Shown here: in pieces, positions 3,166-27,926 of the stretch
Position numbering within the stretch: position 1 is the stretch's first letter
Layout: the number at the start of each line of letters is the position of its first letter
Source: Trileptium ribeirensis
Lineage: Eukaryota > Nematoda > Enoplea > Enoplida > Thoracostomopsidae
Reading direction: 5' to 3'
Length of the DNA stretch: 64,000 nucleotides
Assembly: GCA_030248225.1 (NCBI GenBank)
Contig: JASANE010012513.1
Coordinates: 32,904-96,903 of the forward strand
Translations under genes and position numbers: made by a program
Notes under the pieces: generated by a model
Database searches by the model: none
Told to the model about the DNA's origin: nothing
Seen by the model: only the letters and a program-made list of their open reading frames with translations

Positions 3166-3206
3166 TATAAAAGAGACTACCCGATTCCACGATCGGGACC
3201 AGTCGA
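3166..3206 (+). promoter_or_regulatory. Predicted LTR core promoter (TATA box and initiator)
   Basis: TATAAAAG lies at 3166-3173. About 30 bp downstream the sequence ACCAGTCGAG (around 3199-3208) resembles an initiator. Both are kept in the 3' LTR (TATAAAAG at 25708-25715). Transcription from about 3200 is inferred from this spacing only. Confidence 0.55.
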
Positions 3207-4275: not shown

Positions 4276-4281
4276 AATAAA
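4276..4281 (+). terminator. Candidate poly(A) signal in the LTR
   Basis: AATAAA is followed by a T/G-rich stretch. The same hexamer is at 26818-26823 in the 3' LTR, where it would end the genomic RNA. With the predicted start near 3200 this gives R of about 1.1 kb. Confidence 0.4.
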
Positions 4282-7065: not shown

Positions 7066-8406
7066 ATGTCGTTACCAGCGAGCGCAAATAGAACGCCGAT
7101 TAGCGGCACGTCAGCAACAACAAATGTAGGAGGTGGCACGGCCACCACGGCTGGTAGTACAAATGGACCCAGCCCCACTGTAGCAGGAGACCCACTAGTA
7201 GCAATCCTACAGCAGCTTATGGAACGGACAACCACAACGGCACCAATTAGACAGGTGGGCGACATTCCACAGTTTTCAGGAGCTGACGGACAGGACTTTG
7301 AGGCATGGCTAGCCACCTACGACAACTTGACGGACGCAAATGGATGGACATTAGAACAGAAACTCATCTGTTTCCCGACTGTACTAAAGGGCGAAGCGCT
7401 TAAGATTTACGAGAGTTTCCCGGACTGCCAGAAACAAACTTACGAAGCCCTTTGTTACAACATGGGCTTCATGTATTCTTCTTCGCAGCGAGACGAAGAC
7501 GCATTGATTACGCTACGCATGCGCATACAGGGAGAACGAGAATCAGTCGCCATGTACGGACTTGACCTCCAAAACCTAGTGGACAAAGCATTCCCGGAGG
7601 TCGAAGGCGAACAACGTGACGCGCTATTACAGAAGTTCCTGCGACAAGGACTGAGGAAGGAGTTGAAATCTGGCGTTATAGGGAAAACTTATCCATCTTT
7701 CAAACACATGATGGATAAGCTCAAGTACAAAGAGGACGCCATTATAGCGTCCCAAAAGGATATTATCGGAGTGCCGGTTCGCAAAAGCAGCCGGTCTAAA
7801 ACAGTTAATTACATGACACAGGGAGGTGAAAATAGCCAACTAGTGGATCAAATACGTGAGGCACTCGATGAGAATAAGCGCACTACAGCCGGCAGCGATG
7901 CTACTATCGCTCGGCTCATCGATCTACTAGACAAGCGCACAGAGCAACACCAGTTAAATGTGATGATGCAAAATAACGGAGCACCGCAGATAGGCGCAAA
8001 TGCAATATCACCGGCAACACCAGTAGGAAATCAATGCTTTCGATGTGGCTATCTAGGACATTTCGCTAGAGAATGCCCGTATTTCCGAATGGACATATAT
8101 GATCCATTGCAAAACGAGTATACGCGTTTAGCCACGCGAGCAGCGCCTAACTACGCGTACGGTGCACCACCACCACCCGCTGTCGAATATGCTAGGCCGC
8201 CACCGCAGTACAATAATCGTCCTCGCTATCGAATAGTTGAACCTAGAGGTGGAGCACGCTACTCGCGACGTGATGATTGGAACAATACAGCAAATCAGCG
8301 GGGATATACTGGTTATGGGCAGCAAGGATACTATCGCCCAGAACCCGCAAATTACAACATGTATGGAAACGGTGGTCAGACCGAATATTATAACCGATCT
8401 CGCTGA
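7066..8406 (+). CDS. gag: Gag polyprotein (capsid/nucleocapsid)
   Basis: A 446-residue structural protein that would form the particle and bind genomic RNA. ATG at 7066 follows an A-run and is the first good start after the LTR. Residues 1-60 are Thr/Ala/Gly-rich. Residues 65-250 are helix-rich and capsid-like, with a retrotransposon-gag pattern (PQFSGADGQDFEAWLATYD). Residues 324-337 are a canonical CCHC zinc knuckle (C-x2-C-x4-H-x4-C). The C-terminal tail is rich in Gly/Tyr/Asn/Arg/Pro and holds a PPQY motif (8200-8211). The frame closes with TGA at 8404-8406, but the same Tyr/Asn/Arg-rich composition continues in frame to a TAG at 8665-8667, so this stop probably interrupts the original tail (CGA to TGA would explain it). 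Confidence 0.9.
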   Translation: MSLPASANRTPISGTSATTNVGGGTATTAGSTNGPSPTVAGDPLVAILQQLMERTTTTAPIRQVGDIPQFSGADGQDFEAWLATYDNLTDANGWTLEQKLICFPTVLKGEALKIYESFPDCQKQTYEALCYNMGFMYSSSQRDEDALITLRMRIQGERESVAMYGLDLQNLVDKAFPEVEGEQRDALLQKFLRQGLRKELKSGVIGKTYPSFKHMMDKLKYKEDAIIASQKDIIGVPVRKSSRSKTVNYMTQGGENSQLVDQIREALDENKRTTAGSDATIARLIDLLDKRTEQHQLNVMMQNNGAPQIGANAISPATPVGNQCFRCGYLGHFARECPYFRMDIYDPLQNEYTRLATRAAPNYAYGAPPPPAVEYARPPPQYNNRPRYRIVEPRGGARYSRRDDWNNTANQRGYTGYGQQGYYRPEPANYNMYGNGGQTEYYNRSR

Positions 8407-8684: not shown

Positions 8685-10928
8685 ATGCGACATGAAATGT
8701 CTACGCTTGAAGAACGCGCAGGAGCTGGCTTAGGCACCCGTTCAGCACAAGTTAACTTGATGGTCACTGAAGACGAAGCAACGCAAGAACAGAATAGCCC
8801 AAATTTCGGAAGTGAGCAAGCATACCCAGATGAAATTGAAACAGAACCAGAGGTATATCAAGTAAATTCATTGCAGACAAGTAGGGGCATACCACGAGAG
8901 TGGTCACAAGCGATCAGGTCGCGGAGTGGCATAGAACCGAAGCAAACACATGAAGAAGAAACACTTGCATACGGAGAATACAACTACAGTGAAGTACAAA
9001 GCAACACTGAACCAATACGGCGCTCGGCTTTGTTGTTTCCAACCCCTGGCGCGCAGGGTGTGACCCGAGACCTTGTGAATAATGGTTGGCCAACCAACTT
9101 ATTTGTATATCCCGATAGGAAGTCAGCGCAAGGAGATGAAGAGTACCGAGATACCGAGCAGAGGAGTGAGAGGGGAGGAGGAACCGAGAACCTAATGGAA
9201 CCAAAGGAACCTAATGATCCTGATGTGCCGAGTGAGAAATATGGGAGGTGGCCGTTCGGACTTCGGGGGCCGATTAATAGGGCATCCGTGTCTAGCAATG
9301 ACCCAAACGCTGGCACGTGTAACCCATCTCAGGCGGCTGAACATCGGATGGAACCTAAGAACCTAATGGATGGAGAACCTAATGAAATGGAACCTAGAGA
9401 GACGCCGTTCGTACTTCGGGGGCCGATTAATAGGGGTCGCGTGTCTGGTAATGGCTCTAGCGCCGACACGGTACAACCTGGGGAAGCGACTTTCTATAGG
9501 CTTATTCAAAATTGTATATGTGAAGCGGAACCAGAAGAACCTGTGGAGGAACTTATGGACCTAATGGAACCTAATGGACTTGCGGATACCGAGAACCTAA
9601 TGGAACCTAGCGGATGGAATGGAATACCGAGGAACCGAGAACCTAGGGAACTAAATGAACTTAAGCTAGCGGATGCATCCAACTTAACTAAACTGACTTC
9701 CACCAATTTAGGGCGGCCGTGTGAAGCCCCTGTAGCTTTTCAACCGACCGGGGAAGACCGCTCGTGGACACTGGTCAGGTGCGATGGAGACCTTCGGAAC
9801 ACGGGTCAGTCCGATTGTCCTAACTCCGTTCAAAATTCGAAAGCGTATGTGTACCCTAGTATCTTTAGAGGCCGGGGAAGACCGCTCGTGGACACTGGCC
9901 AGGTGCAAGGGAGGCGTCGGGAAGTGAGCTGTCCTGATTGCCCCAGCACCGTTCAAAATTATAATATGTATGTAGGATCAAATTCGAACAGAGTTCGGTC
10001 CCTAAGTGTAGGAGCCGTAGGGCCCGACCGGGTCGGGAGCCGCGGTTATCGTTTGTCGTTGCATAGTAGCTCAAACCGGCAGGTGAGTATGTGTGCGTTT
10101 GAGTCTGAGTCGGCTAGGACCGACACCACGGGAATGTGTGTAGAACCGGGGGTAGAAACTGTGCAGTATGTGAGTGAAAAAGGTTCGGGGCTACACGGAG
10201 ACAACGCCGAGCCGAGTGCCGAAAACATTACAAGCCTGGAACATCACGATAATCGAGCTAGCATCTATGAAACTATGGAACCTAATGACCAGATGGCGGA
10301 ACCCAATGATACTGACGGAGAACCTAGTAACCTAAAGAAGAATTATACCGATAAGGAAGGACCAGTAGTAACCAACAAAAGCTCGAAGATTGTGGTAATA
10401 ACACCTATGGTAAACAATATAGCACAGAGAGCAAATGGGACAGAAAACCAACGATTGGAGAGTAAAACAGAAATTGTAGCATGCCAACTGAGTACAGAAG
10501 AAGCCCACGCATTAGGGATTGACTCGACCGGATCGCCGGTTGACTTGACTACGATAATTGAACGAGCATTAAAATCACCCGAACCACTAGGGAATGTAGA
10601 CACTTTTGGCCAAGTTGGCCTGGACACCGCAATTAATAACACCGATACGAATTTGATAGCATTTAAGTACAAATTAGATCACAGGAATACTCGAATGTAC
10701 AAACAACAAATACTAGATATCATACTGAGGAGATTGCACGCATTAGATGGCACCAGTGAAATAGTAGAACCATTGATCTTGCAAGAATTACCTAAAGAGG
10801 AGCGATTAGTGCTGCTGGGACCGGATTCAGAATTAGTACCAGCAGTTAAACCTGAATGTCACGGAAAGTTCCCCATTACATTCTCGCACTACCTAAGCCA
10901 CGTTTTGGGGAAGATCGGATGCCGGTGA
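8685..10928 (+). CDS. Unrecognised 747-aa low-complexity protein between gag and env
   Basis: I do not recognise this protein. It starts at ATG 8685, and the frame is open from 8664. It is acidic and disordered in character, dominated by Glu/Pro/Asn with repeated short words (NLMEP, MEPNG). Two degenerate internal duplications are visible: a unit with the core LRGPINR near 9265 and 9420, and a unit of about 120 bp near 9745 and 9875 whose two copies are read in different frames over part of their length. The last 170 residues look more globular. It ends at TGA 10926-10928, overlapping an open +1 frame (from 10897) that continues as the next ORF, so the two may be one protein broken by a frameshift. 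Confidence 0.6.
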   Translation: MRHEMSTLEERAGAGLGTRSAQVNLMVTEDEATQEQNSPNFGSEQAYPDEIETEPEVYQVNSLQTSRGIPREWSQAIRSRSGIEPKQTHEEETLAYGEYNYSEVQSNTEPIRRSALLFPTPGAQGVTRDLVNNGWPTNLFVYPDRKSAQGDEEYRDTEQRSERGGGTENLMEPKEPNDPDVPSEKYGRWPFGLRGPINRASVSSNDPNAGTCNPSQAAEHRMEPKNLMDGEPNEMEPRETPFVLRGPINRGRVSGNGSSADTVQPGEATFYRLIQNCICEAEPEEPVEELMDLMEPNGLADTENLMEPSGWNGIPRNREPRELNELKLADASNLTKLTSTNLGRPCEAPVAFQPTGEDRSWTLVRCDGDLRNTGQSDCPNSVQNSKAYVYPSIFRGRGRPLVDTGQVQGRRREVSCPDCPSTVQNYNMYVGSNSNRVRSLSVGAVGPDRVGSRGYRLSLHSSSNRQVSMCAFESESARTDTTGMCVEPGVETVQYVSEKGSGLHGDNAEPSAENITSLEHHDNRASIYETMEPNDQMAEPNDTDGEPSNLKKNYTDKEGPVVTNKSSKIVVITPMVNNIAQRANGTENQRLESKTEIVACQLSTEEAHALGIDSTGSPVDLTTIIERALKSPEPLGNVDTFGQVGLDTAINNTDTNLIAFKYKLDHRNTRMYKQQILDIILRRLHALDGTSEIVEPLILQELPKEERLVLLGPDSELVPAVKPECHGKFPITFSHYLSHVLGKIGCR

Positions 10929-11658
10929 AAACACTATTCTACCGCAGGGCATAGCTGTGTCGGAGCGGATATGCCATGCCCACCAGTTGCTCAGGGCCCG
11001 GGTGGCTGGAACGGCCCGACTCGACCGACGGTGGGACGCTGCCGTTTTGTCAGGGCTGTTAGGGTTCGCATCTCCGTTCCTGCACACTATGCCTGGAATA
11101 CACGTCAGCAGTTGCATGTTAAACCACCTAGAGGGACTTTTAGAGATCGTTGCCCGGGTTATCGACGCAATGAGCATTACACAGGCAATCACAGAAGTGT
11201 ATCGGTCTCAAATTCCTATCCTTCAAACATGCATCGTATGCGAGGAACGACATAATCCAAATTTCATGCCTGGGGAAGAGTGTGCTTTTATCACTTATCA
11301 CGGTGAATGGGATTACACTGGGAATCTGTCCGCAGATTATGGAACCATTAGGCGGGACGGGACAGTATCTATTCGACCAAATAGCACACAAGGATTACAC
11401 ACGGCCTACGAACTCATAGCGTATAGGGAAGCCAACTTGGAGTTTCTAGAAACCATTATAGATGCGCCGTACCTATTAGACCACCTAGTTACGGAATTTG
11501 ACGAAACCGGACCTAAGGTTCCGGTGCAGTCACTACATCGCATCGTGTATGCTATAATGGCTAATGCCCTTTTCATCGATATAGATAGTAAACCAAAGCG
11601 CGAGGAACTACTCGACTATTATGGTTGCGCAACCTGCCCAGAACATTTGGCAGAATGA
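10897..11658 (+). CDS. Unrecognised globular ORF between gag and env
   Basis: The frame is open from 10897 to TGA 11656-11658, about 253 codons. No convincing ATG opens it; the first is well inside. It reads as a folded protein, with helical segments, a C-x2-C pair (TCIVCEERH) near the middle and a second C-x2-C close to the end. Its start overlaps the end of the preceding ORF by 32 bp in the +1 frame. Its end overlaps the start of the env ORF by 38 bp. I cannot assign a function; an element-specific accessory or second structural domain is possible. Confidence 0.55.
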   Translation, partial: ATFWGRSDAGENTILPQGIAVSERICHAHQLLRARVAGTARLDRRWDAAVLSGLLGFASPFLHTMPGIHVSSCMLNHLEGLLEIVARVIDAMSITQAITEVYRSQIPILQTCIVCEERHNPNFMPGEECAFITYHGEWDYTGNLSADYGTIRRDGTVSIRPNSTQGLHTAYELIAYREANLEFLETIIDAPYLLDHLVTEFDETGPKVPVQSLHRIVYAIMANALFIDIDSKPKREELLDYYGCATCPEHLAE

Positions 11659-13438
11659 CCCAATGGACGACACGGACCAGGTCCCAAACATGGACCATGA
11701 CGCGGACATAACATTTATCGACGAAGAGGAACTTGAAAGTGAGTTGAGTGCCGTACTCAGTGATGCCAGCAGTGACGAATTGGACATACCAGCGATTGAC
11801 TCATTTGACTCCGACGACCTCATCTCTGAGCCAAGTTTCTCCGTGGACACCGAGAATGCCAGCAATGGACATGATAATGCTAACGACGGGAGTGACCGGG
11901 CATCACCGACCAGGTCGGTACGGTCCTCTCCACACGTATTCGGACAGGGTATCGAAGCTGCGGTCGGATTCCTAAATAAGGGAACTAGAATAATGGGATT
12001 GCTACTTGCTCTACTAACCCTTCATCAATTAGGTCAAACTCACGCTATTGCTACACCATTCTCGGATCAGGTCGCACGCTTAGGAGCTATGGTAAATCAA
12101 CAAGTGGGTACGTTAATCGAACCGCAAGACTTAGTAATAACCGCTTCGCAATCTACCTTTTTACCAATAATTTTACGGCTATCCTTAGATGGACTACAAC
12201 CTAGCAGGCAAGCCACTGGTATGGCGTGGTGTGTATACACTCCTCGGGGTAAACCATGTTTGGGGAATTGTTGTCCCAATCCAAATTGTACTACCATGCC
12301 GGATTTACAACAGAAAGTACAGGAGTTAGAAAGAGAATTAAGAAGCACATATCAAGGTGTACTAGATACTAGTTACTACATGGCACTAATGCGCGAATAT
12401 TGCGAGGCGAATTCTCATCTCTGTGAGGAACCTAAAGTCAGAAAGAAGCGATTTCTCGCTGCATTAGCTGGAGCCGCAGGCGTAGTAACAGGATTTTTAG
12501 GTGTCGGTGTAGCGTTCACCAACGCTGTACACCTTAAGGACTTAAATAAGCAGGTGCTAGCGTTATCTAAAGAAATGAGGAACACATATAATGTCGCTTA
12601 TGGTAATTCGCGAGCGATCATGAAATTAACGCACGCTAATGAGGAGTTATACTCGTTTTTACATCATGAGATGCAGGAGGTAGTTACTATGATCGATCAG
12701 GTAAGATGCCAGGAGCAACGCTACGTAACTGAGGTTCATCGCGAGCTAGTAAACCACATGTTTCGCACCAGCCTTCGATCATCGGTCGACGCAGTCATGG
12801 AAGCCATGATGAGTGGTCAATTATCGCCTAAGGTAGTGGACGCATCCACGCTTAAGAACTTATTCCAAAAGAACTCGCAGATAGCGCAGACGATTTTAAC
12901 ACGCGAACCTGCATTGGCATACCAATTTGGACAAATCTACCCAGTGCACATCGATCTAGGCTCATTTAAATTTGCTTTCATACTGCGGGTCCCATTAGTC
13001 ACGTCGGACGATGTCCGACCCTACTTTCGCATATATAACGTCGGCTGGAACGTCCCAGAACGCAGTGCTCACATGAAATTACCATTACCTGATTACGCTA
13101 CGCGGATTGAACGCGCACGCTATGAAGTGCTAAAACTGCATGCTTGCAACACACGACCAGGCATTGCCTTCTGTGAAATACACGCCTTAGCAACGGACCA
13201 TACGTCGCGTTGTTTGGACTGGATCATCATGGGTGAGGACGCTCCAGAGGAAGCTCATCAACTCTGCAAGAACAGTGCATTGGTCGGGCCAATGGCAAAC
13301 CATACAGATGTCTACACCACGGCACAAGGAGTTTTAATTCGAACTGCTGAACGTAAGGCTGTCGTCTCCAAGAAGAAACATCTCAGCCACGTTACCCGAG
13401 GGGAGACAATTAACATTGCTGACAACGGAGATTTGTGA
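11621..13438 (+). CDS. env: F-like envelope glycoprotein, ectodomain part (class I fusion type)
   Basis: ATG 11621 opens a 605-residue ORF. Residues 1-115 are strongly acidic. A signal-peptide-like hydrophobic stretch follows a second ATG at 11993 (residue 125), so the mature glycoprotein may start there. A short Cys-rich N-terminal subunit comes next. A basic furin-type site RKKR lies at residues 274-277 (12440-12451), directly followed by an Ala/Gly/Val-rich hydrophobic fusion-peptide-like segment and then heptad-like helices. This is the layout of errantivirus Env and baculovirus F proteins. The ORF stops at TGA 13436-13438, before any membrane anchor; the anchor lies in the same frame just downstream. 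This is an old genomic copy and appears defective. Confidence 0.8.
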   Translation: MVAQPAQNIWQNDPMDDTDQVPNMDHDADITFIDEEELESELSAVLSDASSDELDIPAIDSFDSDDLISEPSFSVDTENASNGHDNANDGSDRASPTRSVRSSPHVFGQGIEAAVGFLNKGTRIMGLLLALLTLHQLGQTHAIATPFSDQVARLGAMVNQQVGTLIEPQDLVITASQSTFLPIILRLSLDGLQPSRQATGMAWCVYTPRGKPCLGNCCPNPNCTTMPDLQQKVQELERELRSTYQGVLDTSYYMALMREYCEANSHLCEEPKVRKKRFLAALAGAAGVVTGFLGVGVAFTNAVHLKDLNKQVLALSKEMRNTYNVAYGNSRAIMKLTHANEELYSFLHHEMQEVVTMIDQVRCQEQRYVTEVHRELVNHMFRTSLRSSVDAVMEAMMSGQLSPKVVDASTLKNLFQKNSQIAQTILTREPALAYQFGQIYPVHIDLGSFKFAFILRVPLVTSDDVRPYFRIYNVGWNVPERSAHMKLPLPDYATRIERARYEVLKLHACNTRPGIAFCEIHALATDHTSRCLDWIIMGEDAPEEAHQLCKNSALVGPMANHTDVYTTAQGVLIRTAERKAVVSKKKHLSHVTRGETINIADNGDL

Positions 13439-13790
13439 CTGTGGCACAATAACTATACCCAGCTCGTGGTCGGGCCACTTATGCTGGCTAGCACACTAGA
13501 CGCGCAGGAAGTCACAATCCATATTGGGCCTAACATCACTGTCCATGACTTTCCGGACATACCGCTCAAACCAATTGCTTGGAGCTCGTTGGAACACGCT
13601 AAAGCGACGAACTTACAGGTCCAACAAATAGCAGACGAGCAGTTGAAGAAGGTAATTGACTTCCCATACATCACTACCACTGGCGTAGCTCCTTATTTAT
13701 GGATGCTCATCGTGCTAGTAGCTGCTGGCATTGGGGCCATAATCTACTTTAGGAAGAAGGCTGGATTCTGTCCCAAATGCATCAAGGGGC
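13439..13790 (+). pseudogene. Membrane anchor and cytoplasmic tail of the envelope, joined to Pol
   Basis: Directly after TGA 13436-13438 the same frame continues with N-glycosylation-type motifs (NYT, NIT). A hydrophobic segment of about 20 residues follows at roughly 13690-13750, then a basic stop-transfer cluster. This looks like the missing transmembrane part of the envelope. There is no stop between it and the protease/RT. So in the frame as it stands the envelope anchor is the N-terminal portion of the Pol ORF. Confidence 0.7.
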
Positions 13791-16549
13791 GCCTACAGCG
13801 TTGGTGGCAACAACGACCATGTGCTCGGGAGGAACTAAGGCGACCCGAATTGCACATTAAGACGGAAAATGAGTATGGCACCACAGACACGTCCCGACCA
13901 ACAGTTTCAGCTCCAGCTGCTTCCACTGAGCACCTCGAATTACGTACAATGAGCCCTCGCCGCTCAGCACGATTAAATGTTACCAATGAAGATGAAAGCG
14001 TCGTTCTAGTAGAGCCTACTGAATTATTCGCAGTATCTGAGCGATCCCAACGTCGAGGACATCGCACCGCAGCATACCACCGACAAGTCAACGCGATACA
14101 TCATATGGACGCACCCTTACTCATCAATGCTTTTGTATACCGCACGCCAGCACTTACACTAATAGATACAGGTGCAGACGTGTCCATCGTATCACAATAC
14201 TTGGTAAATAATTTAGGCCTCCAGCCGCAACCTGACGATTCCACCAGGATAGTATCTGCCACCAAACAGGAACTAACTTTAGACGGCAGCATAAGTGTAC
14301 CTTTGTCGATCGGGTCCATAAAGGTACAAACCAAATTCTTTGTCACTAAAACAGCACCTTATCACTGCATCATAGGAACAAATTTTATGTCCCAACTGCC
14401 AAAGTGCATCATAAATTTTAAAGAACGTTGCTTAGAAATAGCAGTGGACGAGGAAGAAGCTAAAATACCTTTTGCAGGATTAGAACGGTACGACCCACCA
14501 CTAATTGCAGTAATGTGTCGGAAGCTCACCACAATAGAACCAAACACTGAAACATTCATTAATGCGATCCCAGAAATAGCCGAAACAGGCGTAGGACCGG
14601 CACTATTTGTGCCCGCACCAGAAATGGTTGACATCGCAATGGCACATGCATTAGTGTTAAGAAGCCAAAGAACCATACCAATCGCAGTAATTAATTTCGG
14701 GAACACACCAGTCACTATTTATGCCGGACAAACGATAGGTCACATTGAGGTAATGATGAATCCCAACGTGCAATTCTTGAAAGACACAAACAAAAATTTG
14801 GTCCGGTACGAGGAGCACAAACCTGCCAAGCAATTAAATAACATTACTGCACACCCTGAAAGAATCATCCAATACATAGAGGCAGGGAAAAGGTCAATTG
14901 ACCATGAAAGAGCTCAAACGGTCTTGAGTAAAATAGATTTCGATAAGACCCTACTGTCCCCGTTTGAGCTAAAACAGTTGAAAACCGCAATTGCTGAAAA
15001 CGCAGATGTGTTCAGCACGCATGATTTTGATTTAGGACGCTACACAGAACATAGGCACCGCATAGAGACCGGAGATGCTAAGCCAATTAAGCAAGCACCG
15101 TATCGATTAGCACATTCCTTACGTGAACCGCTTAGAGAGGAACTCAATAGTATGCTAGATGCTGGACTAATATCACCATCGAGCTCACCTTGGGGATCAC
15201 CAATAGTGTATGTAACCAAGAGTGACGGCTCACTCCGACTCTGTGTGGACTTTCGGAAGGTAAACACGGTAGCAGAACAGGACGCATATCCATTACCTAG
15301 AATAGATGATATTCTGGGATGCCTCAGAAATACTAAACTAATGTCCAGCTTAGATCTAAATAAGGGTTTCTGGCAACTAGAATTAGACCCAGAGACGAAG
15401 GACAAAACATCTTTTGTAACAGTTCATGGGCAATATGAATACAACGTCTTACCATTTGGATTAAATTCATCCCCAGGAGCTTTTCAACGTTGCATGTCCA
15501 TGATTTTAAAAGGGTTAGAATGGGAAAAATGCTTAATCTATATAGACGACATACTAGTATTTTCACCAACGTTTGAGGATCACCTAGCAGACCTAATTAG
15601 GGTGTTCGATCGTTTTCGCAGAGCAAACTTAAAATTAAAACCATCAAAATGCCACTTTGGCCGAGGCAGCTTAAAATATTTAGGACACATAATCAGTACA
15701 GAAGGTGTAAAACCAGACCCAGAAAAGGCAATAGCAATAGAAGAATTCAAACGCCCGGAGACATTGAAGCAGCTTCAAAGTTTCCTGGGACTAGTAGGTT
15801 ACTATCACAAATTCATACCAAGCTACTCAGATATATGCGAACCACTGAACGAACTGAAACGCAAAGACGCGGTATTTAAATGGACTCCTAAGTGTCAGGA
15901 TGCATTTAAGAAGCTAAAACAAGCGCTATTAGATGAACCAGTACTAATAAATCCCGATTTTACACAGCCGTTCATTTTGCAGACGGACGCTTCAGGATAC
16001 GCAATGGGTGCAGTGCTCTCGCAGAAAACTAAACAAGGTCTTAAACCCAGTGCGTACGCGAGCAAGGCTCTGCTAGATTATCAACGCCGTTACCCCGCAA
16101 TCGAAGCTGAGGCTCTCGCAATCAGATGGGCAGCGCTACACTTTAAGCATTACCTCGTAGGACACAAATTTCATGTCGAAACCGATCACAAGCCGCTAAA
16201 AGCCTTGTTTGACAAGCCGCCTAGGAACTCACGCTTATCCCAATGGCGTAGTGAATTACTACTTGAGTTCGGAGGATTTGAAATACTATATAGACCAAGT
16301 AAAGAGAACGGCAATGCCGATGCTTTGTCGCGGGATCCTAGATACGATCCATCTCTTGGTGAGGAACAAGGAAATACCTATGAAATACTGATGATGGGTC
16401 GAGGACGACCCACCGGCTCTCGTCCACCAACAACCTGCGCCGCATGGGATCAATCGCACTTGCCGTATCTCGTACGCACAGTAACCCCGCTCGCAACAGG
16501 GGCGCCAACAGCAGTAATAGGAAGTCCGATTGCTCCCCCAGGACAGTGA
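13791..16549 (+). CDS. pol: Pol: aspartic protease, reverse transcriptase, RNase H
   Basis: This is the Ty3/gypsy-type replication enzyme; the frame is open from 13439. The protease active site LIDTGADVS has DTG at 14165-14173. The RT fingers motif LRLCVDFRKVN is near 15235, the SSLDLNKGFWQ motif near 15347, and the catalytic YIDD box at 15539-15550. RNase H begins with LQTDASGYAMGAVLS near 15980 and includes the EAEALAIRWA and TDHKPL motifs. All key residues looked intact. TGA at 16547-16549 ends the ORF, but the same frame stays open into the integrase, so PR-RT-RH-IN was probably one polyprotein. No independent ATG start was identified. Confidence 0.93.
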
Positions 16550-18304
16550 AACCCCGAGGCAATCCCATCGCAACTAGTTCCTGACACGCAGATAACGGCA
16601 GTACCCCCAGCAACACTCACGCAGCAAGCAGCTACGCTAAGCGCGATCCCAATTAGGATGCAGCAGGCAGAAACACCAGTAATGTCAGTACACACTACAA
16701 CCATATCGAGTTCTGGAGTCGGACCTCAGGCTCGGGGATCTAAAAGGCCACACCGGCCTGAGTCGGAAACCGTAGGACTAAGAGCAACCACATTACCGAC
16801 AGAGCAGGAATTTGATAGGCTCATGAAATTAATGATGCATTATGAAACTGAGATATTACCAACAGTAAGGATCGAGGACGCACAAGACACCCACGAAAAC
16901 ATATATTTACCATTCTTTTCAAATCTCCCAGATTTTAACCTAGTACGGCTCTTGCCGTACATCCAAAGAAATGACCCAGAACTGGGTCCTATTTGGTGGT
17001 ACTTATACAACAAGACACGGCCCAAGGCCGAATTGGGCGCACTAAGAATAGAAATGCGGGCTCATTACTTCGAACTAGCCCAAGACACGAAAATATTATA
17101 CATGCATCCACTACAACCAGGGGACATAAATTACAAATTGTGCGTCCCAATTACACTAGTACAGCAGGTACTCAAACACGAACATAACACATTATATGGA
17201 GGACATCCTGGCCGCGATCGGCTACTAGCAAAATTAAAGCAATTTTACTACTGGAAGGGTATGTCGGAGCACGCACAACAATGGATCAGGCGATGCACCC
17301 TATGCCAATCCGCGAAGGACCCAATTGCTCGGATAACCACCGGATTGGGTAGGGTTCCGTTGGCAAATCAACCAATGTATCGTGTATTCGTAGATATACT
17401 CGACATTCAAGTTCGGTCGCAAGCGGGTAACCGCTATGTTATTGCATTCATCGATCAATTCACAAAATTCGCAATAGCAGTCGCAATAAGGCACCAGGAT
17501 GCACACACAGCCGCACACATATTTTTATATGAGGTAGTTAATAAGTACGGGGCTCCCAGTGAGTTATATTCTGACAGAGGAGGTGCTTTCACTGCGCATA
17601 TGTTTGAAAGCCTGTGCCAGGAAATGCACATATTTCGGCACATGAGTTTAGCTTATCACCCTCAGGCAAACGGAGAAATAGAAAGATTCAATAGGACCTT
17701 ACTCTATCTATTGCGAGTAAGTGTACCCCAAAATGATCATCATTCATGGGATGTATCATTGCCATTCTGCATAATGGCCTATAATTCTTCAGTACATACA
17801 GCAACAAAATATCCACCATTTTTGTTAATGCATGGATTCTATCCTAGATTGCCCGGAGAATACGACACGCATAGCGCAGCTACAGGATACACCGGAGCTC
17901 ACTCATATAGAGCCAACGCGCAGCGCCGGATGGCTTCCATTAGAGAACGCGCATATCAATCAATGAGAGCCGCCCAGGAAGTAAACCGGCTAAGGTACAA
18001 CAGGCGAGCTCGCGAACCACGCTATCAAACAGGTGAGTTAGTTTGGGTTTATAGACACGACACTACACCAGGAACATCTAGGAAACTTACGCCTCGTTGG
18101 TGCGGACCATACGAAATACTAAGGATCACTCCGCCATGCATGCGTGTAAGAATGCATTCCAATCCGGAAGGCATGGAACATGTCGTGCACATTAATAGGA
18201 CAAAACCATGTTTTAGGGCATTAGATCCGGTACCTAATGTAGGGGACTGGTTAAGCCAGGTACACGCTTCTGTATTAGAAAGGGGACTGAACGAACCAAC
18301 TTAA
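16550..18304 (+). CDS. pol: Pol: integrase (continuation after in-frame TGA)
   Basis: Same frame as RT/RNase H; the first ATG is at 16658. The N-terminal zinc-binding HHCC runs from NTLYGGHPGRDRL to RRCTLCQSAK at about 17186-17312. The catalytic core has the first Asp in VFVDILD (near 17390), the second in YSDRGGAF (near 17570) and Glu in ANGEIERFNR (near 17673), the D,D-35-E arrangement. A C-terminal SH3-like GPY module (RWCGPYEI, near 18095) follows. It would insert the cDNA into host chromosomes. The ORF closes with TAA 18302-18304, after which the frame again stays open for 84 codons. Confidence 0.93.
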   Translation, partial: NPEAIPSQLVPDTQITAVPPATLTQQAATLSAIPIRMQQAETPVMSVHTTTISSSGVGPQARGSKRPHRPESETVGLRATTLPTEQEFDRLMKLMMHYETEILPTVRIEDAQDTHENIYLPFFSNLPDFNLVRLLPYIQRNDPELGPIWWYLYNKTRPKAELGALRIEMRAHYFELAQDTKILYMHPLQPGDINYKLCVPITLVQQVLKHEHNTLYGGHPGRDRLLAKLKQFYYWKGMSEHAQQWIRRCTLCQSAKDPIARITTGLGRVPLANQPMYRVFVDILDIQVRSQAGNRYVIAFIDQFTKFAIAVAIRHQDAHTAAHIFLYEVVNKYGAPSELYSDRGGAFTAHMFESLCQEMHIFRHMSLAYHPQANGEIERFNRTLLYLLRVSVPQNDHHSWDVSLPFCIMAYNSSVHTATKYPPFLLMHGFYPRLPGEYDTHSAATGYTGAHSYRANAQRRMASIRERAYQSMRAAQEVNRLRYNRRAREPRYQTGELVWVYRHDTTPGTSRKLTPRWCGPYEILRITPPCMRVRMHSNPEGMEHVVHINRTKPCFRALDPVPNVGDWLSQVHASVLERGLNEPT

Positions 18305-20013
18305 CGAATTATCGCTGATAGAGATTTCGTTACTGAGATAGAACCCGTGGACGAAGTAGCAGTGCGCACTGTAAGAACAACAGTCAGTGATAGTTCAGAC
18401 ACCGAGAGTATAGAAATGGGTGACCCTAACGATCCTAACTTATATCGCAGGACTTATGCTGAGATTGAGGCAGAACAAGCAGCAGTGGAGCACATTGAGT
18501 ATCGAACGGACGACTACGTCCGCAAAATCCACGGACGGTCAGGAATCGGATTCCTCTGACTGATCCAGATAGAGAAATAGAACCCTCTTGGCCACCGATA
18601 TCGCAGGAACAGGTTACTAGCCAAGAAGCTTTTTCATACATACCAGAACCTGGTAGCCGAGACACGCAGGTAGAATATGGACGACACACCGCGCCAGTAA
18701 CAACGATGGAAAGAATAGTAGCTACCAGCGAGGAAGTTCCATTCGGTGTACCGACTGTAGGTGTAGGCATACTTGAAGGACAACACTTCTATCCCGCGGA
18801 TGTTACGCTGTCCACTACACCTCGAGGAGCTTCAGGCGGAATTGTCGTACCTGGTCCATACACCTCAGGAGACCTGCGTTACGCAATTATTCTCGCCGCA
18901 CAGGACCATCCGTTATTCCAATCTCGTCCAGCTGAACATATTATGGCATCGCGGCTGCGGGTACCAATGGAAATGTCAACTCAAACCGTAGGAGACTATA
19001 CCACAATACGTCCTTATAGCGCTCCGCCAGTAGCTGCCGACAGACCTATGTTTCCCCATCAATATGTTTTTCGCGAAGTAGCCTTTACTCAACCTCCAGG
19101 GTCACCAATGTCCAGCTACCTGTCAGAGACATCTGGTGAAGGTACCACAGTGGACGTGAGAGCAGCCGAAGCGGACGACGAACTAACTAGCCAGACATCA
19201 CAGGAGCCCTCTTCAGCTGAACGACGCGGTCAAGCGGGACAAGAAACATCCAGTAGTAGTTCCAGAACACCTACTACACAACCGGGAGCATCCGACTCAC
19301 TAAGCGAATTTACGCTTGCGGAATCAAGTAGCGAACCACCAGCACCCCGAATGGGAATCGTTCACGCAGTAACCTTAGGTACCCCTCCCCGCACACGAGC
19401 ATCGACAGAAGAACGAGGAAAGGCGCTTGTCGGACGGGCCACGCAACGGAAACAGGTTGTATCAACACGAGGAGGTTCGACCACCCAGTCTGGCCCCACT
19501 GATCAGCCAGGACCATCCACGGTAACCATCACTGAGCAGGTACACCCCACTACTGCTGCTACTACCTCCTCAGGAACAATACGCCTTAGTACGACTCAAG
19601 CGACGGTCCCAACCAGACACTTACTACATCGCCAGGCCAGGGACCGGGTCTTTAGGCCATACGGCGCAGCATCCGACGAAGAGGTAGGAGACGCCTTACG
19701 CAGACCCAGACGTGTAACTTTCCAGGAACCACGGACGACCATCATCGAAGCGGCAGGAACATCGACTAGACTAGCCTCTACTACACGCACACAATCCACC
19801 ACTGTCACCACTTCAATGACAAGCGCACCAACACCAACCCCACGACAGCTTTTAATGGAAGGACGCTCGCCAGATGGGACACAACCACCAACCTCATTTC
19901 CCCGATGTCCTTCTAGCCAGGAATTACACCCTGCAGCTTGGCGACGACGAACACCCCGACCGCCACCACATGATGAGTCTGACTCGAACGACCCTGACCT
20001 ACGGGTGAACTAA
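18305..20013 (+). CDS. Ser/Thr/Pro-rich tail region downstream of integrase, frameshifted
   Basis: I do not recognise this. The integrase frame continues from 18305 to TGA 18557-18559. The -1 frame is open from 18499 to TAA 20011-20013 (first ATG 18706) and carries similar composition, so the two are probably one region broken by a frameshift within 18499-18557. The long part is rich in Ser, Thr, Pro, Gln and Glu with long STT runs, and ends in a basic/acidic stretch. It could be a disordered C-terminal Pol extension or a separate mucin-like product. No membrane segment was seen. Confidence 0.5.
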
Positions 20014-20156: not shown

Positions 20157-21388
20157 ATGCGACGAAGCTGCAGCGCAAACGACATCCGAAGGCCGCTGAT
20201 ACCAAAAGGCGTGCCGCACGTACCGATGGTTTGTGGCAACGGCGTTTACCCGGCGGTGCCCATCTACCGCATTCAACGAGGGCCGCTCGTGCAAATCTTT
20301 GCCTCTAAAGGCACCTGTCGGCCCTGCTCGGCAACGAAACCACCACAATTGACACATTCGAGCATAACGGGCGGCGACTGTCCAGCGCGTCCGAACACTT
20401 TCACCTCAGCATCCTGGAGCTGCTGGGCTTTGATAACGCCGGAAAGGAACTGGCTAAAGCGGACATCAGCCCAACGGAGCTGCAACTCCGCAGCATTGCA
20501 TTACTTCGTCGGCTGCCGCTCAAAAGGCGGCATATGCTCCAGGCCTATTACCCGCACATCATGCGGCCAATTCTACTGGCCAAGTTCCCCATAATCGAAT
20601 GTGCGGAAGAGCTGGAAGCCACCGGCGACCGACTTTTGCTCAGCGCGGCGTTTGACGACTTTTGGGGAACCGGCACGACCCACATCCAGTGTTGTTGTGA
20701 CCGCACGTTCCACAACGTGACGGGTCGTCTGCTCGAAGAAATCCGAGCATATTATCGGGACGGCCTCGTGCGATGGCCCCAAGTCATCATCGTGGGCGAC
20801 GAACAAGCGTTACCATTGCTCAACGTCGCCGACCAGCATAACTGGCTCGTGTTCGCTTGGCCGCGTATGGAGATGGCCGACCTGGTCCAATGGGCCAACG
20901 CCTTCGTTACGCCACAGACGGACTGCGTAATTGTCCTCGGCGGCTATGGCAAACTGTGGCAGGCCGACCGCAAGGTCTATTCGCCCAGTGCGTTCACCAA
21001 GCGCATTAAGCGGAAACTGGAGGTCCTCGAGCGACGCCTCCGCGAAAACGCAGCCGTCTATATCGCTCCGCCGCCACCACAGTGGAATGCTACGAATTAC
21101 ACCAGCGACGCGTGGGCGACGGAGCTGCGCATGCGGAAGCTAAGCCTCACCGAGCAACACCAGGCCCTGCGGAACGTCATCATGCCCGCATGGTCGGTAC
21201 CGTTAACGGCACCCGAAGCCTGGGATACGGTCGGACCGTTCAACCGGGGTGAGGATCGCCAGCGATGGGCCGAACCGGTGGTAGCGCCCGCTTATCAGAA
21301 GGAACTGGTCAATTGGGTGGGCTACTATGTTCGTTGCACCGGACTCTTTCGCCTCGGCGAGCAACGGAGATGCGACGAAGAAGAGTAA
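20157..21388 (+). pseudogene. NADAR-domain gene 1 with degenerate SGNH-like C-terminal domain (one frameshift)
   Basis: ATG 20157 follows a splice-acceptor-like sequence. The first 50 codons are in one frame and the rest (20309-21388) in the -1 frame, with TAA at 20306-20308 between them: a one-base lesion. The N-terminal domain matches NADAR (YbiA-like): a conserved Glu (20393-20395) in SASEHF, then MRPILLAKF, then TGDRLLLSAAFDDFWGTG (Trp at 20663), then NVTGRLLEEIR. NADAR enzymes cleave N-glycosidic bonds, including ADP-ribose on guanine. The second domain has a VIIVGDEQ block and a VIVLGGY block like SGNH hydrolases, but lacks the catalytic Ser and Asn. About 45% of residues appear similar to gene 2. 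Confidence 0.75.
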
Positions 21389-21648
21389 TGCTCATTTAGG
21401 AACTTATTCGCACGTGGGTACCTCCAGCTGAAAGAAACAGACAACTGGTTAGGAGTCATAGAACACCATAGAGCGGTAGAAAACACAACCCTTTAGGGCC
21501 TAAAGAATCCCGTCTGCGAACGCACGCGAGAGAATCAAGCACAGGACTAGAAGGTACGCAAGCCTTTGCATGTGGTTGCACTAGTATGCGTAGCGTAAAC
21601 CGACTGTTGTGAGAAGGGACAAAACCTATAAAGGTTATATTATTACAG
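21389..21648 (+). other. Spacer between the two NADAR genes
   Basis: No coding sequence was seen. It ends in TATTATTACAG directly before ATG 21649, a good splice-acceptor match. Confidence 0.4.
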
Positions 21649-22984
21649 ATGGACAACAGCGTTCGGCAACGCGGTGAGGACTACAAAGACAACAACAGCG
21701 TTCGGCGACGCAGCGACAGTCAGGTGGACCATAGCGTTCGGCAACGCAATGGCAACGACATCAGACGCTCCGAAGGCGATCCAACCGGCGGGTATCAACG
21801 ACCGGACCGTACGCCCCGCCCGAAGCCACTACGTACCGCCTGCCTATCATTCCAACGTACCATGTCGACCTGACGAAGCCGTACGTTCCCTTCCAGTCGC
21901 ACGGTACCGAGTGGCCGGAGCTGTCCAACATGCACGAGGCAGCGACGCCCTTCCACCATGACGGCACGACGGCCCCGACCGTCGAACAACACTACCAGGT
22001 AAGGGTGCTGCTCGTGCTTGGCCTGATAGAGGCGGCCAAAGAACTCATGGACATGATTGGGACGCCGCAGCAGATAAAAACCAGAGCGCGGGCGCTAAAG
22101 GACGAACTGATCGACAACATCACCAGTGCCCGGCTCAAACCGTTGTTGGAACACATAATGCGGCCCATACTGCTCTGCAAATTCAACATTCCCAGCTACG
22201 CGCGGATCCTACACCTCACTGGCCAACGACCGCTCCTGGAGGTAACCACCGATACCTTCTGGGGTGTCGGACGTACGATCCAACAGCTGCGGCATGGTGA
22301 ACAACCCAGGAATTGCCACAATGTCATGGGACGGCTCTTGGAAGAGGTGCGTGAGTACCTCACTTCTGGCTACGCTTGCTGGCCACATGTCATCATTATG
22401 GGCGACGCGCTTCCGCTGCCGTTGCTGGAGATGGCCAATGACAATAAATGGCTGGTCTGCGCATGGCCTGGCACCACGCTAATACGCATGATTCAACTCG
22501 CCAGCGCTGTCCTAACGCCGCTAACCAAGTGCGTCATCTTACTTGGAGGCTACCAATACATTTACCGGAAGGCGCAACCGGAGCAGCTCCATGCGACCAA
22601 CCCAAACGCAGCCTTCAAGAAGATCAAACGCCATCTGGGAATGTTATCTCGGCGAGTACCAGCGCGCACGCCCGTGATTCTCGCACCGTCAATACCCCGA
22701 TGGGTCGCGACCAACCAGGATGCAACGTCCTGGACTATCGAATTCAAACGCATAGTCGCTAACCATCGGCAACAGCACGACGCATTCCACAACGTCTACT
22801 TCCCAAAAACTGGCCAGTCGCTTTCAACGCCGCGGACGCCTGGGAACGAGACGAACCGCATATGGAATGGCAAGAGCGCCCACAGTTCGAGGAGCCAATG
22901 GTTTCCAAGTACTGCCTGCGTAATTTGCGGGAGTGGGTTAGCCAGTTGGTACGCGATGCCGAACTTGGACGCTTAACGCGGTAG
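21649..22984 (+). pseudogene. NADAR-domain gene 2 with degenerate SGNH-like C-terminal domain (two frameshifts)
   Basis: ATG 21649 opens an Arg/Asn-rich N-terminus built on a three-fold repeat of AGCGTTCGGCAACGC-like words. The NADAR domain is in the -1 frame (open from 21735). It shows WPELSN (near 21912), TVEQHY with the conserved Glu at 21984-21986, MRPILLCKF, FWGVG (Trp at 22260) and NVMGRLLEEVRE. The SGNH-like part has VIIMGDALPLPLL and VILLGGY but no catalytic Ser. The original C-terminus, homologous to gene 1, is read in the -1 frame after an A5 run at 22805-22809 and ends at TAG 22982-22984. The unshifted frame ends at 22976. GC content is clearly higher than in pol or the flanks. Confidence 0.75.
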
Positions 22985-24123: not shown

Positions 24124-27100
24124 TGTAACAGCCCGAGTTTTACGTGGAATCTTAAACATTCAAAATCCGGCCAGAAGGGCCTCAAATTTGGGGAATAAAG
24201 GGCGATCGGATACCGGTGGAGCGTGATCCAGGAATTCATTGATATGTCATTGATACTTGTATTGAATAAAATAAAATATTGTATCGTATGCTATAAATGT
24301 GTCATCACGCTCCACCAGCCCGAGGTGCGCGGGGTGATTTCGCACCCAAATTTGGATCGAAATCTCTGGTTGGAGGTATCCGATCGATCCCAGGTGATTA
24401 TGATTTTATGAATAATAAAATATTTGTACAATCTTCGATTGGTGTTGTAGTGCTGTACGGATGCGTAGTCGAGTCGGCCGGGGACAAGGGGAAAGATCTC
24501 ACGATTTTATCACCGCTCAGACTTAACAATTTTGTTGAGTAGGTGCCCCAGGGTCGTTTCCGGTGCGCATTCGTCAATGGTACATATTCATGTTTATTGT
24601 TGAATAATCGAATGCATATTGTGTATGGTGCCAAGTGTCAGGATGGCTCAGGGTGCCGTGCGAAAACCCCAGGACAAAAATGCGTTTTCGAGTTTCTATG
24701 ACATCTTGGGACCTGGGAAGATCTATCCTGACACGACGGGAAATGAAACAGTTACCTTGTTACCGTTTTGTTATATATATATGCTTTAAGGGACGTTTTG
24801 AATACATGGGAAAAACGACAAGAATCGATCTAAGATGATAAAACTTCACTTTTCAATGGGTATAAGAATTTTAAAATTTTAGGGGTTTTCACAGATCTCC
24901 AACAGAAAGGGGGACATTAAACTATCATCAGGACTCTATAAGGCTTTAAAATCTCTCGTTCGGGACAACTTACTCCAAAACCCGTACATACTTATGGACC
25001 CCCGATCCCGCGTTTGAACACCCAAATTTTCGGGCCCTAAAGCACCACATTCCGAACCAAAACTTCTCGATTTTTGGAGCTCTGTACATTACTTGGGTCC
25101 TATACTAACTATATTATTGAAAACCGGGGCCATCCGCCCCAACGGGTCTGCGCCGGACCCCCATAACTCAAATGGGACCCAAAACATTTCTATTTTACAC
25201 GCAGAAACGGGCCTCTAACGGGCCTCCGAGGGGAATTACGTTAAAATTGGGGCTCTCATGAGCAGGCGACCAGCTAGGGCATGGATATGATCCCGCCCCC
25301 GGCCGTCTGCTCCCTTTCATTCCTGAAATATAAACAAAAATAATAAAAAATTTTTATACACATAGGGCGCCTGAAGCGCTGATATATTTCTGATATTTTA
25401 AAACCCCGCGCCGACCAGCGCGAGGTTCTGCCTTGTTTACGTGCTATTTGGCACATTTCGGCCACTGTGCATTGTGGCCTGTTGTTATTGCTGGCGGCAG
25501 TTTCGTTTTTGGCAAATGCTACATAGACCGGCTGGTAGCAGGGTTGGCTACATTGACATACGGTACAGATGGTGGTTTGTTGTGTATCTACGTCGACGTT
25601 TGATCTTTATATATATGTATCGTTTAAAGTTTTCAAAAATTTATTTAAAATTTTAAATTCTAAGAGTCTAGCATTGACAACCAACATAAAGGGGGGTAGG
25701 TAGACAGTATAAAAGAGACTGCCCGATTCCCCGATCGGGACCAGTCGAGTTTTAAGTTATTAGGAATTGGCGGTTGTCGCCATTTGAGCTTATTTTATTA
25801 GGTTTTTGCTTTTGTTTTGGTTTGAACATAGCAGGGCTGGTTTCTCGCCGTGCCTCCACGGTGGAGAGCCTTCCCTGGTGCTCGCTTCTGTTCGATCCTA
25901 CCAAGGGCCGTCCTTGCGGGCGTTGGGGTGTCGGAAGGATGCCCCGCGCGTCCGTAAGGGCCGGGCCCCGTCAAATTCGCAAAATTATCGCAAACGAATC
26001 AAAATTTGGGTTCTCGCATAGCTCGACTGGTTCCCCGCTCCTCGGACGTTTTCCTTCTTTCACAGGTCCGAGGAGTGATTAAAATTGTTAGCTTGATTTA
26101 GGTAAATAGCAGTGCATAAAAGCAAATGGCAGTGCATAAAATTTCTAGGCTAAGGAAAATTCAATGACGATAGTTCTGTTCTACATGATAAGGACCAAAA
26201 TTTCTCTAACTAGGTCTTAGCCAAAATTTATGGGCGGTAAAGAGAATGACACGGGAGGCGTAGCCGTTTGCATTCGCGGGTGACACGCGTTGTCCTTTAC
26301 TTGTCTGAGGTCGCACAGCAGCGGCGAATCCTCATTCGCTCGCTGATTCTTTTGGTTCCGGTTGGTGTGCGATGCAAACGACTGCGGGCCCGAACGTGAC
26401 GAAATTTTAGGAGGATCATTAGCCGAGCATAGAACGAAACAGGGACTGGAGCTGGCGGCGACCTAAATTGTACTGAATTTTGGTGGGACGTAGGTTTTCT
26501 AACCGTGCAACTACGGGGAAGATCTATGTCGGCACCCACTCCCGGAGCTCTCTGGGAGCGAGTTTCGAATCAGTTGGGCAGGTCGCCGGCCACTCCAGTC
26601 GCTGTTGAAATTTTTGAACCCTCGGTCCCGTTTTCATGCAAAGTTTAGATCATTACAGGGGACCAATCATTGTGATTTAGCAAACGTAACTAGTCATTTG
26701 AACGTCAGCATTCTTTCGTCAAAGACCGATTAGGCTCTACTAGAACGAAAACTGTAAGGGTATAGTACTTAGAAGGGAATGTAGCGTGTACCTCGGGGTA
26801 TCTTGCAAGGTAACCGAAATAAATGTTTGTCATTTATACATGTTGTAAATAATTTGGAGTGCACCCCAATTGGGTGATAACTATGAAGTGTGTAGTGTGC
26901 AATGAAAAATGAGCCAATAGTAAATCGCTTGAATGGCGTGACGTTTTTGAAGCAGTTAGGAGTTCGGTTTAAATTCCTGTCCCCAGTAGAAACTCAGAAA
27001 TTATTTTCAACAGAGCTCCCTCAGGACCTTTGAACCAAGGTCAGCTTTGTATCACTGTGAGCAAGCAATCCACCCCCACGCCCCGTCGAATCAATCCGCT

Positions 27101-27794
27101 AACGCCAGCTCGCTCGCTTCTCCGTTTTGGGCCCGAGCCGGCAATCCTCCTGCACCCCGCATTCTGTCCATGTTTTGCTCTAACTGCCTGGAGCGCTCAC
27201 GCTGCAAATGCCCCCAGCATAATCGTAGCTTTGCGCAGCCCACATCACAATATGTGACACTCGTAATCATAGGTGAAACATCCAAGGGACTGGGGCCCTC
27301 GCCTCAGTGTCCTCTGCGTTATCACAACTACCCAAGATTTAGGGAACATACCTCGACTAGGCCCTGTAGAAATTGTGTGCGCTTACAATCTAAGCTTCAG
27401 GTGGTGCAACGCTCCCAGATCAGAAACGAGACAACAGCGCGTAGGGACACACCGACGGGGAAAGTAGCTAGGACCACGTTAGGACCAGAGAACCCCGCTT
27501 AGGGAATTAAGTGGATAATGAGGGAAAGGCGAGTCAGCCTTATTACCTGTGAGCAGGCTTAGGGGTTGACTCTCCCTCGGGGGACCTTCATGCCACTAGA
27601 TACGTGGGCCATTATAGGGGCCAGGCCGAACACCCTGGTTAACCCGCCGGCAGCCTGCTAAGCTAAGCGGTTCCCTTAGGTCATCGCATACATCACCGGG
27701 GAGTCGTGGAAGCCGGGGTTGTCCGGGCACCACACGCTAAAGGAAAACAGTGGTGCAGCTGGGATCCCTTAGGGCCAGAACTGGTCCTAGTACA
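24124..27794 (+). repeat. 3' long terminal repeat (3,671 bp)
   Basis: It is the direct copy of 1585-5253, starting TGTAACAGCCCGAG and ending GGTCCTAGTACA, followed by the CCTA duplication. The TATA box (25708) and AATAAA (26818) are conserved. Confidence 0.97.
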
Positions 27795-27926
27795 CCTATG
27801 TATACTTTCTGAAAATACGGTCACAAACACCATGATGTCAAAGACACCATACATTGGATGGTGGCAGAGACACTGACAGTGGACAAAACTTTCATACAGG
27901 GGTCCTTTATAACGTAAACGCTGCAA
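27795..27926 (+). mobile_element. Right half of the inverted-repeat element split by the giant retrotransposon
   Basis: It begins with CCTA, the second copy of the target duplication. It ends in a terminal inverted repeat (GTCCTTTATAACGTAAACGC) that is the reverse complement of the sequence near 1289. Rejoining it to 1286-1584 gives one element of about 431 bp, the former empty site. Confidence 0.7.

Follow-up and report, generated by a model that had tools for sequence, protein, structure and literature searches.

The DNA analysed here, hereafter the window, is a stretch of 64,000 nucleotides from the nematode Trileptium ribeirensis (contig JASANE010012513.1, positions 32,904 to 96,903; G000:C8280:32904-96903 in our numbering). 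It carries a giant long terminal repeat (LTR) retrotransposon of the Ty3 type, which spans positions 1585-27794 (26,210 bp) and holds two genes for NADAR-domain proteins, NADAR1 and NADAR2, between an open reading frame (ORF) that we call ORFx and the 3′ LTR. The first-pass annotation had described two tandem paralogues at the 3′ end of a giant LTR element, and the ORF layout and the LTRs bear this out. The two LTRs are 98.2% identical (blastn, 3676 aligned columns, 55 mismatches and 9 gap openings), have the ends TG...CA, and are bordered on both sides by a 4-bp target duplication, CCTA. Together with gag and the order protease, reverse transcriptase (RT), RNase H, integrase (IN), these features of structure and gene order place the element in Ty3/Gypsy.

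A high-copy family of giant Ty3 elements with an env-like region carries the NADAR pair as a regular module. We searched the genome (687 Mb, 20,229 contigs) by scoring the best candidates only (116 of 2,820 for NADAR2, 137 of 2,436 for NADAR1, 79 of 5,652 for the integrase and 150 of 2,317 for the Pfam NADAR profile, with 99 of 2,518 and 100 of 2,361 in further searches), so that all copy numbers are lower bounds. The NADAR2 protein gave at least 118 matches and the NADAR1 protein at least 138. The copies fall into three subfamilies, A (which includes the window), B and C, with integrases 93-98% identical in amino acids to that of the window. NADAR1 probes of B and C gave at least 100 matches each, those listed for B including about 40 A-type places, and more than 200 distinct NADAR1 places occur among the matches listed.

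As these lists had been selected on NADAR, linkage was retested from the integrase side. Among the 79 integrase copies scored, window included, NADAR1 lies downstream in 71: the A probe detected it in 38 (at a spacing of 2,207-2,325 bp), the B probe in 9 more and the C probe in 19 more. In the DNA downstream of the remaining 13, NADAR1 is present in five (L059, L061, L062, L063, L065), NADAR2 remnants lie at internal deletions in three (L055, L056, L058), and L057 has a reversed NADAR1 scrap; two copies (C7643, C12031) are too near a contig end, and in two (L060, L064), where ORFx is truncated, NADAR is missing from the next 3.5 kb. A full-length ORFx lacking NADAR was seen in none of the 11 copies that were readable among these 13. 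Furthermore, the stretch from RT through NADAR2 is collinear in all eight of the NADAR2-selected 10-kb regions. Four loci (L055, L056, L058, L063) are internal-deletion derivatives in which a truncated ORFx, or NADAR1, joins NADAR2 sequence directly; in L063, NADAR1 residues 1-298 are followed by NADAR2 from residue 210.

The integrase-linked NADAR1 copies attribute the pair to the element family, as first proposed, and not to one copy. A chance capture in a single copy was rejected, the linkage test being selected on integrase. Such a capture, or a false family call, would find some support in the window NADAR1, which alone falls under the Pfam cut-off, but it is contradicted by the number of NADAR1 places, by the integrase linkage, by the purifying selection described below and by natural NADAR2 proteins of two subfamilies that score over the cut-off. 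We consider it negligible.

Both copies contain the NADAR blocks initially recognized, namely the conserved Glu, KF, DxFWGxG and N-x-x-GRLLEE(I/V)R. The expected match to the Pfam NADAR profile (PF08719, cut-off 35.1 bits) was obtained for the window NADAR2 (46.2 bits, E=7.6e-12), but NADAR1 remained below the cut-off (22.6 bits, E=1.4e-4). Natural NADAR2 relatives from two subfamilies reach 50.2 (L016), 49.5 (L047) and 53.9 bits (L048); the two natural NADAR1 ORFs scanned gave 32.5 bits (L047) and no Pfam match at E≤1 (L042). Since NADAR1 is too divergent for the Pfam cut-off, its probable membership of the family leans largely on its homology to NADAR2, to which it is 39% identical in the window. 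Against NCBIfam models, NADAR2 scored 45.9 bits with TIGR02464 (E=6.6e-12, under the model cut-off of 73.7) and 24.9 bits with the DS32_2 anti-phage NADAR (far under the cut-off of 240). NADAR2 alone gave only a weak match to YbiA among PDB sequences (2b3w, E=0.063), and a profile of 11 natural NADAR1 and NADAR2 sequences gave a single significant one, to the NADAR domain protein 8bau (E=7e-4; next 0.15). Protein searches with NADAR2 and with the two-copy alignment, in which candidates were limited by shared words, returned nothing at E≤0.001, and one scan of viral contigs gave no match. Both window copies are frameshifted near their start, and the last ~50 residues of NADAR2 are out of frame relative to most listed relatives; the search for intact versions elsewhere in the genome, as originally suggested, recovered open frames of ~410 amino acids for NADAR1 and ~450-490 for NADAR2.

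The duplication that gave rise to the two paralogues most likely predates the subfamilies, because of their grouping in a tree and of the relative identities of the proteins. A tree was built of 18 sequences of subfamilies A, B and C and four of another NADAR context (see below), 22 in all; in it, the NADAR1 of all three subfamilies group together with a support of 0.997; the branch separating all NADAR2 has a support of 0.78, and that of the subfamily A NADAR2 0.996. Identity is 64-70% between the NADAR2 proteins of subfamilies A and C, versus 31-38% between NADAR1 and NADAR2.

In the Escherichia coli C7 NADAR, guanine de-ADP-ribosylation involves E88, K95 and the acidic D171, and K95 is essential (PMC11543638; here and below, statements on cited papers refer to the available part of their text). 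The Lys found in YbiA-type proteins seven residues after the Glu (E+7) is replaced in both window copies, as the first-pass annotation had noticed, by V in NADAR2 and by L in NADAR1. The V is found in all NADAR2 ORFs compared (27/27 in subfamily A, window included, 3/3 in B and 3/3 in C) and the L in all NADAR1 ORFs (8/8, 3/3 and 3/3, respectively). The equivalent of E88 is present in 27/27 NADAR2 and 8/8 NADAR1 ORFs of subfamily A, the equivalence in NADAR1 being set by motif, as MAFFT puts its Glu one column off that of NADAR2. In the NADAR2 of subfamily A, the motif D is kept in 26/27 and the W in 24/27, and both Glu of the last strand in 27/27; the corresponding LLEE is found in these 27 and in the NADAR1 ORFs of A and B compared. 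Across 11 natural sequences of both paralogues from A and B, 19 of 20 NADAR motif positions are invariant, compared with 36 of the 163 columns of the NADAR span, the sole exception being the Glu, through the same one-column offset; no P value is attached to this comparison because the positions were chosen by hand. As the Lys that is essential in the E. coli C7 enzyme has been lost, an ordinary hydrolase activity appears doubtful, even though the other motif positions are conserved.

An active de-ADP-ribosylase or N-glycosidase could nevertheless persist if the basic residue had been relocated. Indeed, the subfamily A NADAR2 have an Arg at E+6 in 27/27 ORFs, and the K95R mutant of the E. coli C7 NADAR still hydrolyses its substrate in vitro (PMC11543638). 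However, this Arg is replaced by Gln in subfamilies B and C (6/6), NADAR1 has no basic residue at this place, and the Arg is one position off on the presumed helix. We regard such an activity as quite unlikely.

Both proteins run past the NADAR domain into a second conserved domain of ~145 amino acids, which was absent from the first-pass annotation. Blocks conserved in both proteins are GD(A/E), AWP and LGGY, and strands and helices alternate in the low-confidence model of this domain (predicted local distance difference test score, pLDDT, of 58.6). Pfam matched this domain in neither protein (in NADAR1 not even at E≤5), and the likeness of the domain to SGNH/GDSL hydrolases is a resemblance by eye only.

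NADAR2 is under strong purifying selection, and NADAR1 is under purifying selection too. The ratio of nonsynonymous to synonymous divergence (dN/dS) of NADAR2, pooled over 351 pairs among 27 ORFs of 30 loci (three with ORFs shorter than 400 amino acids were dropped, and the window copy was included), amounts to 0.103 overall, with 0.041 in the NADAR part, 0.065 in the C-terminal domain and 0.326 in the N-terminal extension; the value of the NADAR2 tail is inflated because that of the window copy is out of frame. For NADAR1 (23 of 30 ORFs, three duplicate loci and the shorter ones being dropped), the two domains give 0.109 and 0.098, and the whole 0.125. Other regions of the same element served as yardsticks, stop-free and sufficiently long regions being kept out of eight (four for RT, five for IN, five for ORFx, six for NADAR1 and eight for NADAR2). 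The values were 0.023 for RT, 0.040 for IN, 0.132 for ORFx, 0.126 for NADAR1 and 0.062 for NADAR2. By these yardsticks, the constraint on NADAR2 is similar to that on the integrase, and that on NADAR1 similar to that on ORFx.

Between subfamilies, the pair is much more divergent than the other parts of the element. Between A and B, NADAR1 is 56-57% and NADAR2 62-64% identical; between A and C, the values are 49% and 67-69%, respectively. Where NADAR1 begins, the A-B nucleotide identity, 90-94% up to there, drops to 56-60%, and synonymous divergence (dS) rises three- to six-fold at the start of the pair in several comparisons. It goes from 0.75 in IN and 0.46 in ORFx to 1.58 in NADAR1 and 2.5-2.9 (near saturation) in NADAR2 between A and B. 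Within C (L050/L051) it is 0.32 in ORFx, 1.22 in NADAR1 and 0.98 in NADAR2, and within A (L042/L045) 0.33, 1.14 and 0.60. These unequal synonymous depths of adjacent genes would be best explained if element lineages had exchanged their 3′ parts by recombination. The exchanged block may reach beyond NADAR2, since the sequence past this gene also diverges (L050/L051, L051/L052).

These data also bear on a structural role, in which the particle of the element would contain a NADAR fold without its chemistry, as a scaffold or to bind nucleic acid. The loss of the essential Lys in all copies examined and the constraint on both domains would agree with this. Yet almost every NADAR motif position is invariant, and a module whose variation between subfamilies so far exceeds that of the other parts of the element does not behave like a core particle gene, which makes a particle component rather improbable.

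We favour, with a probability of roughly 0.4, the reading that NADAR1 and NADAR2 are accessory host-interaction proteins, which would move between element lineages as a 3′ cassette. The strongly constrained NADAR2 would keep the ADP-ribose or nucleotide pocket as a binder of ADP-ribose-type ligands, or as a slow, altered hydrolase, and would mask or blunt a host signal or mark, based on ADP-ribose, by which the element is restricted, while the faster-diverging NADAR1 would be its partner or specificity subunit. We prefer a binder because of the constraint, of the retention of the motif without the Lys and of the divergence of the pair as a block. Three points of this reading are inferred: movement of the block by recombination, continued binding by the pocket, and a host defence as the target.

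Several observations weigh against this reading. The Lys is absent from every copy examined for that position, in both paralogues, and LLCD replaces LLEE in the NADAR1 of subfamily C (3/3), so that ligand binding itself may have been lost. Fold searches with structure models of NADAR2 with its C-terminal domain (pLDDT 46.1) and of this domain by itself gave no trustworthy match. dN/dS lies far below 1 in all parts, with no direct sign of positive selection. Moreover, the presumed exchange of the 3′ part is not uniform between lineages, as the rise in dS is absent or small in some pairs. Within subfamily A, L042/L046 show 0.31 in ORFx, 0.23 in NADAR1 and 0.64 in NADAR2, that is, no rise at NADAR1, and L042/L039 a small one (0.42, 0.55 and 0.52, respectively); between A and C, dS goes from 1.05-1.11 to 1.76-1.79 in NADAR1, and the B-C comparison is similar (1.0-1.1 to 1.7-1.8).

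The pair could instead serve RNA metabolism, by binding or processing the element's own RNA (its cap, a spliced leader (SL) or NAD-related ends), a tentative proposal that is nearly as likely as the one we favour. The nematode SL trans-splicing protein SNA-3, an essential nuclear protein linked to the cap-binding complex, has three NADAR domains (PMC9303266). It resembles our pair as a eukaryotic multi-NADAR system in which one NADAR lacks the conserved catalytic residues, a precedent for such a role, but it is a host gene with its three domains in one protein (PMC9303266). Likewise, RNA processing has been proposed by the authors for the retrotransposon NADARs of Ectocarpus and oyster (PMC12477816), and separate downstream ORFs such as those of the pair must be expressed somehow. 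On the other hand, in an Rfam scan of the window no family came up to its gathering score, which is weak evidence, and it is not obvious why a function in the RNA of the element itself should favour a module that diverges between lineages.

Presumed mobile elements of at least two kinds appear to carry NADAR in this genome, because a second repeated context was found in which the Lys is kept. The Pfam NADAR search gave at least 150 strong matches among the best candidates (matches were also obtained in 3 of 14 control genomes), and the eight of these 150 that were fetched (L001-L008, on C16926, C2766, C17792, C520, C4889, C15696, C8131 and C11743) lie in a repeated context unlike the LTR element. 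An A32-like packaging ATPase gene lies near NADAR in L003 (PF04665, 31.8 bits, over the cut-off) and a TBP-like gene in L004 (PF00352, 112 bits); in the other loci, wherever they are long enough, an A32-like ATPase and/or a TBP-like ORF was recognized by reading. Their NADAR has kept the Lys in 8/8. Judging from the repetition and the gene content, these loci are presumably mobile, DNA-virus-like elements.

The features of the element in the window are collected in Table 1.

Table 1. Positions of the LTR element's features in the window
Feature	Positions	Strand	Remarks
5′ LTR	1585..5253	+	TG...CA; CCTA duplication at 1581-1584
gag-like ORF with CCHC zinc knuckle	7066..8406	+	PF00098 23.1 bits, cut-off 20.8
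Two ORFs (8685-10928, 10957-11658)	8685..11658	+	No Pfam match over cut-off
env-like region	11621..13438	+	Hydropathy and motif scan
Protease, reverse transcriptase, RNase H	13466..16549	+	PF13975, PF00078, PF17919, PF17917 over cut-off
Integrase	16658..18304	+	PF17921, PF00665 over cut-off
ORFx, low-complexity C-terminal part of the polyprotein	18706..20013	+	No Pfam match at E≤1
NADAR1 gene	20157..21388	+	PF08719 22.6 bits; frameshifted near start
NADAR1 C-terminal domain, possibly alpha/beta	20762..21196	+	40% identical to NADAR2 counterpart
NADAR2 gene	about 21649..22976	+	PF08719 46.2 bits; frameshifted near start and in last ~50 residues
NADAR2 C-terminal domain, possibly alpha/beta	22368..22811	+	dN/dS 0.065; model pLDDT 58.6
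3′ LTR	24124..27794	+	CCTA duplication at 27795-27798

In 12 of the 79 listed copies, the integrase lies within a single open frame of 4,314-4,346 amino acids; decay is therefore the probable cause of the interruptions between ORFs in the window copy. From its length, this frame would start at gag, and the two ORFs between gag and the env-like region are presumably part of it. RT, IN and ORFx all share one frame in L042 (C17304), as do the end of RT, IN and ORFx in L053 (C16668); in L050-L052, the ORFx frame is open upstream and reaches directly after IN. The env-like region (11621-13530), between gag and protease, contains RKKR followed by FLAALAGAAGVVTGFLGV, and the following ORF opens with a second hydrophobic stretch; since the region matched neither a Pfam model over cut-off nor a PDB sequence at E<0.5, we keep the label at env-like. 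The part of this ORF inside the fetched regions is 94-99% identical in seven of eight; the eighth, L042, is not element sequence there, and an apparent env swap in L042 was dropped as the first 1.85 kb of that region are not element sequence. A dUTPase-like reading of the stretch between protease and RT was dropped as well, having no Pfam support. A tRNA scan of the window was empty. The closest matches of RT include metagenome proteins at 71% and 69% identity, and the named ones are mostly from animals (frogs, a pseudoscorpion, a fish, a rotifer), plus a single alga and a bacterial bin. A COX1 search gave two matches only, interrupted by stops and located on the same contig. A 30-bp unit, repeated ~26 times in an array with long open frames that overlap on the two strands, lies just beyond the 3′ LTR (28179-28960). 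A second Ty3-type element, identified by reading, occupies 45327-49941 on the minus strand; its integrase-side ORF has a stretch that looks PWWP-like by eye, and its gag-side ORF a GDVEQNPGP that, also by eye, is presumably 2A-like.

The first-pass annotation was not aware of any retrotransposon with such a pair. Retrotransposons with NADAR have in fact been published, in one Gypsy lineage of Ectocarpus and in ORF1 of Tx1 LINEs of the Pacific oyster (PMC12477816), but the top-ranked papers of the literature searched, a coverage that leaves out most subscription journals, described no LTR element with two NADAR genes in tandem. The Ectocarpus lineage is Ty3/Gypsy, as here (PMC12477816); in contrast to these elements, the window has two separate tandem genes 3′ of integrase and ORFx, each NADAR being fused to another domain, and the pair diverges as a block. 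The pair here is also devoid of the Lys. What appears to be new is thus the tandem, Lys-less form in a Burro-like element, of which we found no example in the literature searched.

The planarian Burro is the closest element architecture that we know, the likeness being one of architecture and not of a tree with Burro sequences. Both are giant Ty3-type LTR elements present in many copies, with a CCHC gag and extra domains; the env-like region between gag and pol and the long, presumably single polyprotein (4,873-5,140 amino acids in Burro versus about 4,320 here) may be further common features (PMC6431247). The BIR, BCL2, ankyrin and MATH domains of Burro had no Pfam match in the window ORFs scanned, and NADAR is not mentioned for Burro in the available text (PMC6431247). 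The LTR retrotransposons of bdelloid rotifers similarly have accessory enzyme-type ORFs 3′ of pol, of kinds common to different mobile elements, but their ORF3 is a GDSL esterase with intact catalytic residues or a DEDDy exonuclease, and the available text does not mention NADAR (PMC5408684). With the YbiA and DarT-associated enzymes, the pair shares Pfam homology, the Glu, D-x-F/Y-W-G and the Glu of the last strand; it differs from them by the replacement of the Lys in all copies examined, the extra C-terminal domain and the retroelement setting (PMC11543638, PMC11125620). NADAR is also known from RNA and DNA viruses, including viruses of invertebrates (PMC9503650).

A bolder extension, which the sequences bring to mind and which we hold to be rather doubtful, would see here a Burro-like, env-bearing element with a recombining immune-evasion cassette, whose two Lys-less NADAR decoys would bind, and not cleave, host ADP-ribose signals, while the DNA-virus-like elements would use Lys-bearing NADAR enzymes. 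If this were true, decoys and Lys-bearing NADARs together would suggest that the host defends itself against mobile elements by means of ADP-ribose.

Many eukaryotes, and viruses that infect them, have NADAR domains, and this element family bears on the role of these domains outside bacteria. A Lys-less pair, one member of which is constrained like an integrase, and which diverges as a block, constitutes a natural test of ADP-ribose chemistry versus binding in the conflict between element and host, and the natural open frames present in the genome can be assayed directly.

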